Shown: one piece after another, positions 7,916 to 12,896 of the stretch
Layout of the letters: each line of letters starts with the position of its first letter
Numbering within the stretch: the stretch's first letter is position 1
Assembly (NCBI GenBank): GCA_024281135.1
Contig: JAMXLG010000040.1
Span: 1-13,442, forward strand
DNA length: 13,442 bases
Direction of reading: 5' to 3'
Origin: Vulcanimicrobiia bacterium
Lineage (GTDB): Bacteria > Eremiobacterota > Eremiobacteria > Baltobacterales > Baltobacteraceae
The notes under the pieces: model-generated
What the model was told of the DNA's origin: nothing
Databases searched by the model: none
The model's input: only the letters and a program-made list of their open reading frames with translations
Translations under genes and position numbers: made by a program

Positions 7916-9403
7916 ATGATCTCGGCACGGCAAGCCGCCTCGGGTGCGACGGCGCTGCGCGAGGCAGTTGCGGAGCTGCGCGATGCAGTGATCCGCGATG
8001 CCGATCCGATTTACAACTCCTGGCATCTTCCGATCGAGCGCCGCGCGTTTCGGCTAGCGGCGTACAATCTCGCTTCGTACATGGCACTGCGGCGTCGCGA
8101 TTTGCGCGCGCTTCAGCAGGCACTCATGCCGCTCGGCCTCTCGTCGCTCGGACGATGCGAATCACGCGTGCGTCCAACGCTCGATGCGGTATTACGAAGC
8201 CTGACGTCTATCGCGGGAGAAAACGCCGACGGCGTTCCGATGTATCCGCGTCCCACGCAGTTCTTTCGCGGCGAGCGGCTGTTGCAGCGCAACACCGCAG
8301 AGCTTTTCGGCGCGCGCCCGGAGCGACGAACGACGCGCATCATGGTGACGCTTCGCACTGAAGCAGCAAGCGACGCTCCGTTCGTTCAGAAACTCGTCGA
8401 ACACGGAATGGACTGCGCGAGAATCAACTCCGCGCACGACGGTCCGGACGCGTGGCGAGCGATGGCCGCGAACGTGCGTGCCGCTTCCAAGGCTACGGGA
8501 CGCTTTTGCGCGGTACTCGTCGACATCGCCGGACCAAAGATGCGCATCGAGCAACTCGAGATGCCGGGGACCGACGAGCGCGTCCGCCCCGGTGATACCG
8601 TCGTCCTCGCGCACGGCGTGTACGGTCCGCGGCTCGAAGGCGCGCCGCGCGCGATCTGCCGTCTGCCCGAAATATTCCCTCAGCTCGAGATCGGACAACG
8701 CGTGATAATCGACGAGGGCCGGATCGGCGCACGCGTGCAGCGCATCGACAAAAACGGAGCGGTTCTCCTCGTCGATCGAGCGCGCGATACCGGCGAAAAA
8801 TTGCGAGCGCAGAAGGGTCTGAATTTTCCCGATACGCACCTAGAACTCACGCCGTTGACGCGGGACGACTTGCACACGCTCGATGTGATGGCCGAAGAAG
8901 CCGATCTCATCGGGTACTCGTTCGTTCGGAACGCCGACGATGTTGTGCTTCTCCAGAATGAGTTACGCAAGCGACGCCGCGGCGCGCTTCCGGGGATCGT
9001 GTTGAAGATCGAAACCGCAAGTGCGGTCGCGAACATGCCGTCGCTCATCGTGCAGAGCGCGCGCTTCGCGCCGACTGCCGTGATGATTGCACGCGGCGAT
9101 CTCGCCGTTGAGATCGGTTACCGGCGTCTGGCCGAGATGCAGGAAGAGTTGCTATGGATCTGCGAGGCGGCATCGATTCCAGTCATTTGGGCCACGCAAG
9201 TCCTCGATACGTTCGTGAAAAAAGGCCGCCGTTCGCGGGCCGAATTCACCGATGCGGCAATGGCGGAGCGGGCCGATTGCGTGATGCTCAACAAAGGACA
9301 GTACCTTCTCGATGCGTTGGAGCAAATGGACGATTTACTCGGACGCATGGAAGAACATCAAACGAAGAAGACGTCCCGTCTCCGCGCGCTTCATACCTGG
9401 TGA
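7916..9403 (+). CDS. Pyruvate-kinase-like protein with N-terminal extension, no C-terminal domain
   Basis: 495 residues. Residues about 1-135 are an Arg/Leu-rich helical extension absent from classical pyruvate kinase. From 140 on, pyruvate kinase landmarks appear in order: TRIMVTL (140-146), MDCARINSAH (165-174) with Arg169, DIAGPKMR (203-210), IIDEGRIGA in the B domain, KGLNFP (300-305), GYSFVRNADDV, LKIE with Lys364 and Glu366, ARGDLAVE with Asp395, and ATQVLDTF...RAEFTDAA. The usual SGETA after DCVML is replaced by NKGQY, and the protein stops about 35 residues later, so the C-terminal regulatory domain is missing. Alternative pyruvate kinases with this layout occur in other bacteria. Phosphoenolpyruvate/ADP chemistry is plausible from the retained catalytic Lys and metal ligands but not certain. 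A weak GGTGAG precedes ATG 7916. It appears monocistronic. Confidence 0.88.
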   Translation: MISARQAASGATALREAVAELRDAVIRDADPIYNSWHLPIERRAFRLAAYNLASYMALRRRDLRALQQALMPLGLSSLGRCESRVRPTLDAVLRSLTSIAGENADGVPMYPRPTQFFRGERLLQRNTAELFGARPERRTTRIMVTLRTEAASDAPFVQKLVEHGMDCARINSAHDGPDAWRAMAANVRAASKATGRFCAVLVDIAGPKMRIEQLEMPGTDERVRPGDTVVLAHGVYGPRLEGAPRAICRLPEIFPQLEIGQRVIIDEGRIGARVQRIDKNGAVLLVDRARDTGEKLRAQKGLNFPDTHLELTPLTRDDLHTLDVMAEEADLIGYSFVRNADDVVLLQNELRKRRRGALPGIVLKIETASAVANMPSLIVQSARFAPTAVMIARGDLAVEIGYRRLAEMQEELLWICEAASIPVIWATQVLDTFVKKGRRSRAEFTDAAMAERADCVMLNKGQYLLDALEQMDDLLGRMEEHQTKKTSRLRALHTW

Positions 9404-9424: not shown

Positions 9425-9456
9425 TTGACTCAGGAGTCGGGTACAGGGTTTAGAAT
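9425..9456 (+). promoter_or_regulatory. MerR-type promoter of the mercury locus
   Basis: A -35 box TTGACT (9425-9430) is followed after 19 bp by TTAGAAT (9450-9456) as the -10 box. An over-long 19-20 bp spacer is the hallmark of promoters activated by MerR family proteins through DNA untwisting. The spacer holds an imperfect dyad, including GACTC-AG-GAGTC at 9427-9438. It looks like PbrR/ZntR-type promoters (TTGACTC...AGGGT). The GTG of the MerT-like gene at 9463 lies 6 nt past the -10, about where transcription should start, so the message is probably leaderless. The regulator is likely the MerR encoded at 10688-11071. Confidence 0.75.
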
Positions 9457-9462
9457 CGGTGC

Positions 9463-9831
9463 GTGAATAGCGCCGGCGCCAAACATGAGATTGCGCCTAT
9501 TTCCGGAGCAGCAGCCGGAATAGGCGGCGCGGCGGCGGCCGCGGCAGTATCGGCATGCTGTGGCGGGCCTGCAATTGGCTCGCTCCTGATTTCTCTCGTC
9601 GGTATCGGACCAGCGGTCGCCATCGAGGGGTTGCGTCCCTATACCCCTGCGCTTCTTGCCGGATCCGGTGTCTTGATCGCCGGCTCGCTTTGGATGAACG
9701 CTCGTCAAAAGCGCTGCGGCGTAGATCGACGTGCCGTAGTGCTAGGCAGAATCTCTCGCGCGCTTTCGTGGATCTCTTCAGTCGCTTGGCTTGGTGCAGT
9801 CATTGTCGCGATCTATTCCCATGCGTATTGA
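9463..9831 (+). CDS. merT: MerT-like mercuric ion transport membrane protein
   Basis: 122 residues with three predicted membrane segments (about 12-31, 36-53 or 62-78, and 98-118). The vicinal pair Cys32-Cys33 in SACCGGP at the first membrane segment and the L-x-PY-x-P sequence near 57-61 match MerT, which takes Hg(II) from the periplasm through paired Cys residues and delivers it to a second thiol site in a cytoplasmic loop. Here that loop has a single Cys85, where classical MerT has two. The start is GTG 9463, with no room for a Shine-Dalgarno sequence after the MerR-type promoter. The stop overlaps the next gene by 11 nt. The neighbourhood (MerR-type promoter, MerR gene, thioredoxin-fold protein) supports mercury or related metal transport. 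No MerP is found; assignment to a distant MerT branch is likely. Confidence 0.75.
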   Translation: MNSAGAKHEIAPISGAAAGIGGAAAAAAVSACCGGPAIGSLLISLVGIGPAVAIEGLRPYTPALLAGSGVLIAGSLWMNARQKRCGVDRRAVVLGRISRALSWISSVAWLGAVIVAIYSHAY

Positions 9832-10147
9832 GATCCTGTCGTTCGCGGGTTGTCCGAACGCGCTTCCGACGCGCGATCTTGTATTACAGGCAGTGCTTCT
9901 CGAAGGCGCTGATGCGACGATTGAAATGGTTGACGTCGCTACTCCCGAAGAAGCAATTCGCTTACGATTCGTCGGTTCACCCTCGGTTCGCATCAATGGC
10001 AGTGATGTAGAGCATGCGGCGCGTAATCGTACTGATTGGGGTCTCATGTGCCGAGTGTACAGACACGGCGAAGACTTCCTTGGGGCTCCCCCGATTTCGA
10101 TGATTTGCGAATCGATTCGCGAGATGTCGCGGGAGCATCGCCGATGA
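9821..10147 (+). CDS. Small thioredoxin-fold protein of the mercury locus
   Basis: 108 residues from ATG 9821. The beta-strand/turn MRIEILSFAGCP with Cys11 followed by a helix (14-27), and the cis-Pro-like turn FVGSPSVRING at 50-60, are typical of short thioredoxin-fold proteins often annotated near mercury genes as thioredoxin-family or alkylmercury-lyase-associated. A second Cys77 lies in GLMCRVYRH. Only one Cys is present at the active-site turn, so it may bind metal or act as a thiol carrier and not as a classical dithiol enzyme. No signal peptide, so cytoplasmic. An upstream ATG at 9791 would add ten residues inside merT; ATG 9821 is preferred because it matches the family N-terminus and overlaps the merT stop for coupled translation. 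Its own stop overlaps the next start as ATGA at 10144-10147. Confidence 0.75.
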   Translation: MRIEILSFAGCPNALPTRDLVLQAVLLEGADATIEMVDVATPEEAIRLRFVGSPSVRINGSDVEHAARNRTDWGLMCRVYRHGEDFLGAPPISMICESIREMSREHRR

Positions 10148-10713
10148 AGCGGGCGGTTTTTCTGGGCGGAACGTTTTCCGCTGTCATGAGCGCGTGCGCG
10201 CCATTAGGTCCGCCGGCGTCGATTATCGATTTGAACGAAAATCTAGCGGCACTACGAAGCGCATTTAATGCAAGCAGTGACCGCACTCGCTTGATTTTGC
10301 TGCTGAGCCCAACTTGACCGATGTGTCTTCGGGGAGCTTCCGAAGTTGAGCGGACCGTGCTGTCTCGCATTACGTCGACAAACTTGGCAGCTTTTATCGT
10401 CTGGGTGCCTCAACTTCATGGCACGCGGCGCGATGCCATGCAAGCAAGTAGAATCATTGATGATCGCCGTACTCGCCACTATTGGGACGGATCGTACGCG
10501 AGCGGTCCGGCCTTCGAGCGAACTCTAGCAATCGGTGAACCGGCGTGGGACGTCTATCTCGCGTACGCGCCCGGTATTCGTTGGACCACTGATTTCCCGC
10601 CGCGCCCGACGTACTGGATGCATCAGCTCGGCGTCTCGAATGCGCCCCGTTTAGACGCAACGGTTTTTGCTGAGCACGTTCGAGATCTCACTCCGCAAGC
10701 AACGCTTCAATAA
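10144..10713 (+). CDS. Candidate selenoprotein, thioredoxin-like U-P-M-C protein (TGA read as Sec58)
   Basis: One 189-residue reading frame if the in-frame TGA at 10315-10317 is read as selenocysteine. Residues 1-17 look like an export or lipoprotein signal (MSAC at 15-18, weak lipobox). Then comes a helix with ALRSAF, strand LILLLSPT (50-57), Sec58-Pro-Met-Cys61, and the helix LRGASEVE. This is the strand-CxxC-helix start of a thioredoxin fold with the first Cys replaced. The frame stays open for 131 codons beyond the TGA, with coherent motifs (FIVWVPQL, HYWDG, AWDVYLAY, YWMHQLG) like those of Cys-containing redoxin-like proteins. A SECIS-like hairpin follows at 10327-10345. The start overlaps the previous stop (ATGA), placing it as third gene of the mercury transcript. 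Inferred role: envelope thiol/selenol redox or Hg(II) capture. The alternative is a nonsense mutation, less likely given the exact position. Confidence 0.8.
10315..10317 (+). other. In-frame TGA, predicted selenocysteine codon (Sec58)
   Basis: The codon order is AGC CCA ACT TGA CCG ATG TGT, giving S-P-T-U-P-M-C. In thioredoxin-like proteins this position is the attacking, redox-active Cys of CxxC, the residue most often replaced by Sec in bacterial selenoproteins. Codons on both sides share one frame from ATG 10144 to TAA 10711. Confidence 0.8.
10327..10345 (+). promoter_or_regulatory. SECIS-like hairpin
   Basis: CTTCGG (10327-10332) pairs perfectly with CCGAAG (10340-10345) around the 7-nt loop GGAGCUU; two further G-U pairs could shrink the loop to AGC. 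An outer CCG/CGG pairing (10318-10320 with 10351-10353) is possible. Bacterial SECIS elements are hairpins just downstream of the UGA whose small apical loop has a G in its first two positions; both hold here. The loop begins 18 nt from the U of UGA, at the short end of the usual range. Expected to recruit SelB with tRNA-Sec. Confidence 0.7.
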
Positions 10714-11071
10714 TTGGGCAGCCGGAATATTGCTCGCGTTGTTCGCAGGCCTCAACACTGCCCTCCAGCGCCGCCTCCAGCCTGCGCAGATCATCGATCT
10801 TTGTCCTCACGTTGACAAGACGCGCCTTCGCAAGCTGCTCCGCTTCATCGCAATCGGCCGTCGACAGTCGTAGCAACTCTGCTATGTCGTCGAGCGTAAA
10901 GCCGAGGCTTTGACCATGACGAATGAATCGAAGCCGCGTGGCATCCTCGTCGTCGTACGATCGGAAGCCGTGGTCGTGACGCGGCGGAATTCGCATTAAA
11001 CCGATGCGCTGATAATAGCGCACGGTTTCGGCCCGAACGCCTGCAGTTTTTGCAAGCTGCGATATGGTCAT
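10688..11071 (-). CDS. merR: Mercury-responsive MerR regulator
   Basis: 127 residues. The MerR winged helix-turn-helix (MTISQLAKTAGVRAETVRYYQRIGL) is followed by the wing, a long dimerisation helix and a C-terminal metal loop. Three Cys residues match the Hg(II) ligands of classical MerR: Cys in STADCDEAE near residue 75, Cys in SVEACEQREQ near 109, and Cys in YSGCPIIEAL near 118 (Cys82, Cys117 and Cys126 in Tn501 MerR). The spacing and the CPII ending separate it from CueR, ZntR and PbrR types. It should bind the long-spacer promoter at 9425-9456 and activate it with Hg(II). Unusually it is not divergent from the genes it should control: it is the last gene of the minus-strand polyketide operon, its ATG overlapping the methyltransferase stop (ATGA, 11068-11071), and its 3' end overlaps the selenoprotein gene by 26 bp. 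Confidence 0.9.
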   Translation of the reverse strand: MTISQLAKTAGVRAETVRYYQRIGLMRIPPRHDHGFRSYDDEDATRLRFIRHGQSLGFTLDDIAELLRLSTADCDEAEQLAKARLVNVRTKIDDLRRLEAALEGSVEACEQREQYSGCPIIEALLAE

Positions 11072-11577
11072 TTTCCCAATGTTTCACTTCGCGGTGCGAG
11101 CGCCTTATCTTCCGAAAAAATTCTGATCGCGAGCAATACGGCGTTAAGGATCGAAAACACCAGCGCGATGGTCCATGACCCGAACGCGAGCGGAAGTACG
11201 GCGATCTCGAGAGCGACGATGACATAGTTCGGGTGCTTGACGTAGCGATACGGCCCGGTTCGAATGAGTGGTGCGCCTGCAAGTGTGATGATCCGTGTCG
11301 TCCAGAAAGGCCCGAGCGTTCGAAGAACCCATAGCCGCGCTAGTTGCAGGAGAAAGAATGCTGCCAGGAGCCACCAATTCGGTACCGTAGCAGGGCCCAC
11401 AAGGACAAGAATCGAGACGAGCCACGCGGCATGTAAGGCGATGAAGAACGGATGCTGACCTGCGGCAACTTCGACTGCTCCACGCTGCAAGAGACGCCGC
11501 GTATTTCGTTCCGCATAGATCAGTTCGACGATGCGTTGAACGACGACGATCGCGACGACAACGTAGAGTATGCTCAC
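11068..11577 (-). CDS. Isoprenylcysteine carboxyl methyltransferase family protein (BpsB/SrsB-like)
   Basis: Integral membrane methyltransferase of 169 residues, the length of Bacillus BpsB (YpbQ). Hydrophobic segments lie near 2-20, 44-62, 66-85, 117-133 and 135-152. The S-adenosylmethionine-binding signature of the family is seen as RTGPYRYVKHPNY at 106-118, and HPFFIALHAAW lies at 42-52. Family knowledge: BpsB and SrsB O-methylate the alkylpyrones or alkylresorcinols made by a neighbouring type III polyketide synthase. Start chosen at GTG 11577, whose GTGA overlaps the synthase stop (11574-11577); the longer frame from 11643 would lie inside the synthase gene and adds an unlikely polar N-terminus. 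Its stop overlaps the merR start. Inferred product: a methyl ether of a membrane phenolic or pyrone lipid. Confidence 0.87.
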   Translation of the reverse strand: MSILYVVVAIVVVQRIVELIYAERNTRRLLQRGAVEVAAGQHPFFIALHAAWLVSILVLVGPATVPNWWLLAAFFLLQLARLWVLRTLGPFWTTRIITLAGAPLIRTGPYRYVKHPNYVIVALEIAVLPLAFGSWTIALVFSILNAVLLAIRIFSEDKALAPRSETLGK

Positions 11578-12620
11578 GGTTCGAGCGTGACGAAGGCCGC
11601 CGTAAATCCCGGACCCATCGCGGTGAGCAAGGCGCGTCGCCATCCGTTCGACGAAAGCGCACCGCGCTGCAGCGCGCGTTCCAGTACGAAGAGGAGCGTC
11701 ACCGACGACATGTTGCCGTAGTCGGCAAGCACCGCTCGGGAATCCGCGAGCGTCCCGTTTTTACATCCGAACGCGACTTCGAGCGCGTCGAGCACTTTCG
11801 TTCCGCCGGGATGCGAGAGGAAGTGATCGATATCGTCTCGCGTCAAACCAGATTCGGAGAGATAGGCGTCGACGACGTCGCGCAGTTCCGATTCCACGAG
11901 TTGCGGAATATCGCGTGAGAAGATTGCGGAGAGACCATCCTCGGCGACGTCCCAGCCCATGATGTCGAGCGTCGACGCAAACGTGTATTCGCCGCTCGCG
12001 CTCACCCGCGGTCCATCCGTATCGCTTGTAAAGACGGCGGCAGCCGCGCCGTCTCCGAAGAGCGCCGTTGCGACGATATTGCTCTTCGTGAGTTCGTCGC
12101 GGCGAAACCATAGCGCGCAGAGTTCGACGACGAGGAGCAACACAGTAGAACCGGGATGAGCATCTGCGAGTGTCGCGGCGCGTGCGATACCCACGGCACC
12201 GCCTACGCACCCAAGTCCGAAAATCGGCAGACGCCGCACGGTGCGTTTGAACGGCAGGCGATTCATCAGAAGCGCATCGAGGCTCGGCGTGGCAATGCCC
12301 GTCGTCGAAACGACGACAATCGTATCGACCTCTTCAACGGTACGTCCCGCTCGAGCGAGAGCGGTGCGTGCGGCCTCTTGCAAGAGACGCTGCGCGTAGT
12401 CGAGGTAAATCTCGTTTCGCTCGTGCCATCCGTGCGTGTCGTAGTACCAATCGACCGGTACGCAAGAATAGCGACGGGAAATACCCGTGTTCGTAAACAC
12501 GGGAAGCAAACGCGTGACGACGGCAGACTCACTGAATTGCGCGCGCAGGCGCGAGCTAATGTCCGTTTGATCCAGAACGTACGGTGGGACGGCCGTTGCA
12601 ATGCCGGCTATATGGGCCAC
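11574..12620 (-). CDS. Type III polyketide synthase (alkylpyrone/alkylresorcinol synthase-like)
   Basis: 348-residue thiolase-fold condensing enzyme. The catalytic triad of chalcone-synthase-like enzymes is visible: Cys138 in FGLGCVGGAVG, His270 in LSHPGGTKV and Asn303 in YGNMSS; the C-terminal GPGF loop lies at 336-339. Such enzymes extend an acyl starter with malonyl-CoA and cyclise it. The methyltransferase-family gene just downstream, as in bpsAB and srsAB, suggests a long-chain acyl starter and an alkylpyrone or alkylresorcinol product. Start is GTG 12620 with GGAGGT at 12624-12629 just upstream; it lies 15 nt after the HiPIP stop, so one transcript is likely. A FabH-type KASIII was considered, but SHPGG and the GPGF loop favour type III PKS. 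Substrate length cannot be read from the sequence. Confidence 0.92.
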   Translation of the reverse strand: MAHIAGIATAVPPYVLDQTDISSRLRAQFSESAVVTRLLPVFTNTGISRRYSCVPVDWYYDTHGWHERNEIYLDYAQRLLQEAARTALARAGRTVEEVDTIVVVSTTGIATPSLDALLMNRLPFKRTVRRLPIFGLGCVGGAVGIARAATLADAHPGSTVLLLVVELCALWFRRDELTKSNIVATALFGDGAAAAVFTSDTDGPRVSASGEYTFASTLDIMGWDVAEDGLSAIFSRDIPQLVESELRDVVDAYLSESGLTRDDIDHFLSHPGGTKVLDALEVAFGCKNGTLADSRAVLADYGNMSSVTLLFVLERALQRGALSSNGWRRALLTAMGPGFTAAFVTLEP

Positions 12621-12635
12621 CGTACCTCCGTGCGA

Positions 12636-12896
12636 TTACTCTTTGGGCGAAAACGCCGTGCACCAGCCGTTAGGACTAATCGGTCCGTCGACAACCTTGC
12701 ACTCCCCGTCTTCTGAAGCGTTTTTACCCGGTTCGAATAGCGAGCATTCCGAGCACTTCTCTTTGCCGTTGGGCTTATCTTGATACTTGAATTGCGATTT
12801 CGAGCCTTTGGCTTGTGCGATGGTCGTCGTCGTAGCAAAAAGACCGGCAAGGGCTGGCAGCACGATGATGTTCTGGAGAGCATCCCTACGGTTCAT
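12636..12896 (-). CDS. High-potential iron-sulfur protein (HiPIP)
   Basis: 86-residue exported electron carrier. The N-terminus has MNRRDALQN followed by a hydrophobic stretch to AQA near residue 29, a Tat-like signal as usual for HiPIPs, which are exported folded with their [4Fe-4S] cluster. Mature-part ligands are Cys48, Cys51, Cys66 and Cys79 (Cx2C-x14-C-x12-C), ending in the family sequence GPISPNGWCTAF. Spacing in Chromatium HiPIP is Cx2C-x16-C-x13-C, so this is a slightly compact version. GGAGG at 12902-12906 lies 5 nt before the ATG. It is first gene of the run HiPIP, type III PKS, methyltransferase, merR. Inferred role: periplasmic electron transfer linked to oxidation or reduction of the phenolic or quinone-like lipid made by the operon, or simply respiratory; the link is not proven. 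Confidence 0.88.
   Translation of the reverse strand: MNRRDALQNIIVLPALAGLFATTTTIAQAKGSKSQFKYQDKPNGKEKCSECSLFEPGKNASEDGECKVVDGPISPNGWCTAFSPKE

Follow-up and report, generated by a model that had tools for sequence, protein, structure and literature searches.

How should a TGA triplet be read when it is the only break in a long frame that belongs to an operon with mer-like features? This question is raised by a 13,442-nucleotide stretch of contig JAMXLG010000040.1 from a Vulcanimicrobiia bacterium (hereafter the window, meaning the whole of the DNA that was analysed), in which a 189-codon frame on the forward strand is interrupted once, by a TGA at 10315-10317. The UGA is very probably read as selenocysteine (Sec, U), a reading that is strongly supported at the protein level, and the product would be an exported thioredoxin-like protein with a U-P-M-C motif, referred to below as the UxxC protein. 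The two features concerned are as follows.

10144..10713, plus strand: predicted UxxC selenoprotein with a ResA/TlpA-type thioredoxin fold, 189 amino acids (frame, homologs, predicted model)
10315..10317, plus strand: in-frame TGA, predicted selenocysteine U58 of U-P-M-C (Cys in 31/31 site-spanning homologs)

The frame opens with the ATG at 10144, runs for 57 codons to the TGA and continues for 131 codons to the TAA at 10711-10713, giving the translation MKRAVFLGG...LLLSPT-TGA-PMCLRGASE...TLQ-TAA. The boundaries given in the original prediction (10144-10314, the TGA at 10315-10317 and the rest in the same frame) proved exact on re-reading. A GGGAG stretch lies upstream of the ATG, and the N-terminus of the UxxC protein is signal-like, with the letters MSAC.

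The support for the selenocysteine reading comes from the relatives of the protein. The read-through protein was searched against 5.8 billion proteins and returned 18, one of which was the window's own; the sole homolog bearing an organism name in this search was P0010, from a Vulcanimicrobiaceae metagenome-assembled genome. In a profile search 865 proteins passed, of which the best 120 were listed, and the remainder may include non-members. In the counts that follow, 121 homologs were retrieved, with the window's own records (P0001, P0002 and P0124) left out and 745 further profile matches standing outside all counts. Gene models that span the site number 31, two of them starting just 4 and 6 residues ahead of it, and all 31 have Cys both at residue 58 and at residue 61. 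The other 90 gene models start 1-26 residues past residue 58, and their first residues (M in 51, V in 29 and L in 10) correspond to possible start codons after the site. The original prediction had expected Cys or Sec in homologs at position 58, and the comparison is favourable to it. Among models starting at +1 or +2, Cys61 lies within the first residues in 28 of 29; the exception, P0105, is apparently misaligned and was kept among the 90 despite its misaligned-looking start. The Cys form P0006 (193 amino acids) aligns across the break with 45% identity over 96% of the query, and the part after the site is conserved among the homologs at about 40% identity or more. Moreover, the late-starting models come from several source collections, and contig ends do not explain every late start because such models also occur in clusters with contigs as long as 194 kb (P0108) and 116 kb (P0075). 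Taken as a pattern, spanning models with Cys and other models starting past the site are the mark that would be expected of an in-frame stop at the first Cys.

One relative appears to be bounded by the site twice. P0053 (180 amino acids, longest contig 7475) starts with MCLRGASE and matches window residues 60-172 with 45% identity over 113 amino acids; after a linker follows a second first-half, ending in LLSPT, which matches residues 30-57 with 57% identity over 28 amino acids. It seems to be what an open reading frame (ORF) caller would yield between the TGAs of two tandem domain copies. The first-half piece of a relative ending at the site was seen inside P0053 only, since the 57-amino-acid first segment, used as a protein query, matched the window's own ORF and nothing else.

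The predicted model has a ResA/TlpA-type thioredoxin fold, and its nearest structural neighbours are ResA, DsbE/DsbF and further exported oxidoreductases of the thioredoxin type. It puts residue 58 between strand 48-54 and helix 59-73, which agrees with the initial proposal that the TGA falls at the first Cys of a strand-CxxC-helix motif, and it has P155, a candidate for the cis-proline opposite the active site that is kept in at least 90% of alignment rows, ahead of strand 157-160. The family has conserved stretches of its own (HYWD, AWDVY and WMHQL), and these, together with 6% identity, the lack of a profile match and the predicted Sec, set the UxxC protein apart from the exported thioredoxins of the ResA, TlpA and DsbE type. 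Scanning the UxxC protein with Pfam and NCBIfam gave no match at E up to 1, and an HMA domain (with GMxCxxC) was likewise not found in it with these models at that threshold. A single PDB match was obtained by sequence profile, with an E of 0.63, and the viral structure library gave 0 matches to the predicted model at E <= 0.001.

The distribution of Cys and broken forms within the family was followed on a tree made by a quick method from residue 81 onward, with few columns and 121 rows (120 homologs, P0105 being excluded, and the window). The starred clade that holds the window has 19 rows, every one of the broken type. At least 4 switches between Cys and broken forms fall on starred branches; the best tree has 13, where shuffled labels average 27.7. 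The figure of 13 is an upper reading because the broken rows may include Cys forms that were truncated in some other way.

The genes around the UxxC frame bear on what such a protein might do, and the following features are needed here.

9425..9456, plus strand: candidate MerR-type promoter, TTGACT-N20-TAGAAT, 6 nt upstream of the merT-like GTG (pattern search)
9463..9831, plus strand: MerT-like small membrane protein, 122 amino acids, SACCGG motif (weak profile matches, fusion similarity)
9821..10147, plus strand: DF family (seleno)protein homolog, Cys form, 108 amino acids, GCPN motif (NCBIfam NF049942)
10688..11071, minus strand: MerR-type regulator, convergent, Cys74/109/118 (TIGR02051, alignment to 5crl)

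The three forward genes overlap in turn, with the DF start at 9821 inside the merT-like gene and the ATG of the UxxC gene overlapping the DF stop (ATGA, 10144-10147). Co-transcription with the merT-like gene, as had been proposed, fits these overlaps as well as two natural fusions, P0026 and P0027, in which a MerT-like part is N-terminal and this thioredoxin domain is C-terminal. MerTP fusions have the same order, with the membrane part first and the soluble domain last. The MerT-like protein of the window, whose gene has normal Cys codons, is similar to the N-terminal parts of P0027 (49% identity over 83 amino acids) and P0026 (54% identity over 50 amino acids), and the fusions would tie the MerT-like and thioredoxin-fold proteins in function.

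In the convergent regulator, which scores best as MerR, C74, C109 and C118 align with chain positions 82, 117 and 126 of PDB 5crl, which we take to be the Hg-binding cysteines. The promoter pattern TTGACT-N20-TAGAAT has a single match in the window and was met in 0/200 shuffles, the pattern having been written after the site had been noticed; long-spacer promoters are associated with MerR regulators. The -10 hexamer ends only 6 nt before the merT-like GTG (9456-9463), so transcription of the operon may begin at this GTG or close to it and give a leaderless mRNA. The DF homolog passed NF049942 with 99 bits against a cut-off of 70 (scored on a longer ORF from 9791); it runs from the ATG at 9821 to a TGA stop with no internal stop. 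As a side observation, this homolog (9821-10147) has the motif GCPN but lacks the second Cys that a CxxC would have, and since it lies next to a predicted Sec protein the two might act in one pathway.

Farther out, an ICMT-type methyltransferase and a type III polyketide synthase lie together downstream of merR on the minus strand (11068-12620; the nearest NCBIfam model is DpgA, below cut-off), followed by a small high-potential iron-sulfur protein (12636-12896, minus strand; HIPIP, 30.2 bits). A pyruvate kinase barrel extended at its N-terminus by ~135 residues occupies 7916-9403, and its best NCBIfam match is PRK14725 (541 bits against a cut-off of 642).

The best explanation of the whole is that of a Sec protein with a thioredoxin fold, anchored in the envelope, whose UPMC would bind Hg(II) and hand it to the MerT-like protein, and we consider it, taken as a whole, marginally more probable than its negation. 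In such a scheme, the UGA would be decoded by SelB together with a selenocysteine insertion sequence (SECIS) hairpin just downstream, and the UxxC protein would be exported and lipid-anchored at Cys18. The neighbouring MerR would control the operon when Hg(II) is present, and the Sec58/Cys61 pair would capture soft metal ions in the envelope, most likely Hg(II), which would then be relayed to the MerT-like protein at its Cys-Cys pair. The UxxC protein would stand in for the MerP of classical mer operons, having a different fold and a selenol, while the DF-family protein would be a further thiol partner. Given that the Sec reading is true, the chance of an envelope mercury relay is put at somewhat over half. 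A broader proposal is advanced tentatively and with more doubt than belief, namely that a large and so far undescribed family of exported thioredoxin-fold selenoproteins replaced MerP in MerR-controlled MerT-like operons, with Hg(II) caught by selenocysteine, passed to the transporter and, in some lineages, with the two proteins fused.

The main rival to the metal relay is a thiol reductase, in which the protein is likewise a selenoprotein and acts as a redox enzyme, either a ResA/TlpA-like reductase that maintains reduced thiols in the MerT-like and DF proteins or one that acts on some other envelope substrate. This is a serious possibility, though one that falls clearly short of an even chance. 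The fold, closest to exported oxidoreductases, speaks for it, and most uncharacterized selenoproteins are described as likely redox-functional, with UxxC named as a redox motif, in a 2026 review (PMC13188914). On the other hand, metal handling is suggested by the fusion to a MerT-like part and by the three cysteines retained in the MerR, and a redox role within such handling would be compatible with both.

Two further explanations do without selenocysteine. Special tRNAs that decode UGA as Cys or another residue exist, yet we regard such decoding as very improbable here. TGA ends 9 of the 14 window gene models inspected, so that wholesale, genome-wide reassignment is unlikely for this window; in addition, Cys61 is normally encoded in the 28 of 29 models starting at +1 or +2, and a break that spares it counts against a general reading of UGA as Cys because both cysteines of the pair would be expected to be hit. 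The other 13 window gene models have no in-frame stop, a fact of little weight, since open frames were what had been selected. The least probable reading of all takes the TGA as a genuine stop, as a sequencing error or as the mark of a dead gene, with two fragments left: TGA is one base change from a Cys codon and the case for selenocysteine comes from protein-level comparison, but the relatives from several collections keep the downstream part conserved, P0053 has this site at both of its ends, and error or pseudogene is rejected because most relatives' models (90/121) begin just past the same site.

The reading of the TGA as selenocysteine in a putative mercury-handling operon has to be set against a number of points that weigh on the other side. 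The TGA in the relatives is deduced from gene-model starts alone, and selA, selB, selD and tRNA-Sec were not recognised within the 13.4-kb window, the extent covered. The role in mercury handling is read from neighbours and fusions only. The MerT-like protein scores 13.1 bits with Pfam MerT, below the cut-off of 32.9, and 10.9 bits (E 0.0063) with NCBIfam MerT_CopZ_Se, whose cut-off is 150, while the regulator reaches 137.4 bits with TIGR02051, under the cut-off of 150.85. A Pfam scan of 15 window proteins, 7 of which were also scanned with NCBIfam, found none of merA, merP and merB; therefore, a full mercury detoxification locus is not shown. Searches of viral contigs (queries A1 and A2), of plasmids (P0001 and P0059) and of phages (P0001) found no relatives, and two matches from a search of viral contigs for the TGA pattern were dismissed, their frames being full of stops. 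Two draws of sampled genomes from the phylum of L001, sharing at least 20 genomes, had the family in 0/299 and 0/398, a result that is uninformative when empty.

The sole genome-contig locus found, L001:3993-4331, encodes a presumably MauD-like protein that shares LFLSPTCPMC; it was not counted as a member of the family because it is just 25% identical overall. Apart from the Sec, its active-site letters are near-identical to those of the window protein.

The hairpin that might serve in decoding belongs with these points as well.

10327..10345, plus strand: SECIS-like hairpin CTTCGGG-GAGCT-TCCGAAG, 7-bp stem, loop GAGCT (geometry fits)

Its loop opens with G, 16 nt past the TGA, in keeping with published SECIS rules. 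At -7.4 kcal/mol it is less stable than the average of 1000 synonymous controls (mean -8.7), 695 of which contain, by loose rules, a hairpin at least as good. A stricter rule, set after the hairpin had been seen, is matched by 6.8% of 20000 synonymous draws and holds at 4 of the 331 TGA triplets of the window, that of U58 included. Folding z-scores of four cuts were 0.19, -0.97, 0.97 and -1.48, and an Rfam scan of the window gave no match for a SECIS hairpin. As a test of a SECIS element, the hairpin is weak, or even against it.

Where the family stands among known systems can be considered with MerP first. MerP is encoded beside MerT or fused to it C-terminally, is exported and has a soft-ligand pair spaced CxxC. 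The UxxC protein resembles MerP and MerTP in lying beside, or C-terminally fused to, a MerT-like protein, in the CxxC spacing of its soft-ligand pair and in its predicted export, whereas it differs in a predicted thioredoxin fold in place of the HMA fold, in the lack of an HMA match and in a predicted selenol. Hypothetical protein DF (NF049942), whose Cys form lies directly upstream in the same operon with no internal TGA, is a separate family. In PMC12013277, DF is described without TGA-containing homologs in other Sec-using bacteria, the Sec form being from one Desulfosediminicola genome. Ocean selenoproteins include MerP and a putative mercuric transport protein, with 2 sequences each (PMC2398784).

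The 2026 review, as far as its available part goes, lists 119 selenoprotein families and subfamilies, including a Sec-containing putative mercuric transport protein and DF, and no corresponding entry was present among those with an NCBIfam or Pfam model, cd and PTHR entries lying outside the comparison (PMC13188914). Its putative mercuric transport selenoproteins (PF02411 type, C/SxxU) and the MerT/CopZ fusion selenoprotein NF045683 likewise combine Sec with a MerT-like part and have a link to heavy metals (PMC13188914); going by names and motif, their Sec lies in the transporter or CopZ part, whereas here the TGA lies in a separate thioredoxin-fold gene. SaoT and other UxxC selenoproteins of the same table are thioredoxin-like too, some of them being tied to organometal chemistry (PMC13188914), but neither the SaoT model (NF040730) nor any other NCBIfam model of that table matched the 40 members of the family that were scanned at E up to 0.01. 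Within the reach of these searches, the family is undescribed in Pfam, NCBIfam, the available part of the 2026 selenoprotein table and the titles and abstract beginnings listed by literature searches, as the original prediction had held, and a description under another name in Haft 2023/2025 or in a 2026 groundwater paper is possible.

If the selenocysteine reading is true, the protein family is mis-annotated, with 90 of 121 homologs stored without their first 58 or more residues, and it would be a new family beyond the 119 listed in 2026. It would also make it possible to ask directly whether selenocysteine is deliberately employed by bacteria to handle mercury, with the Cys and Sec forms of one protein serving as natural controls.
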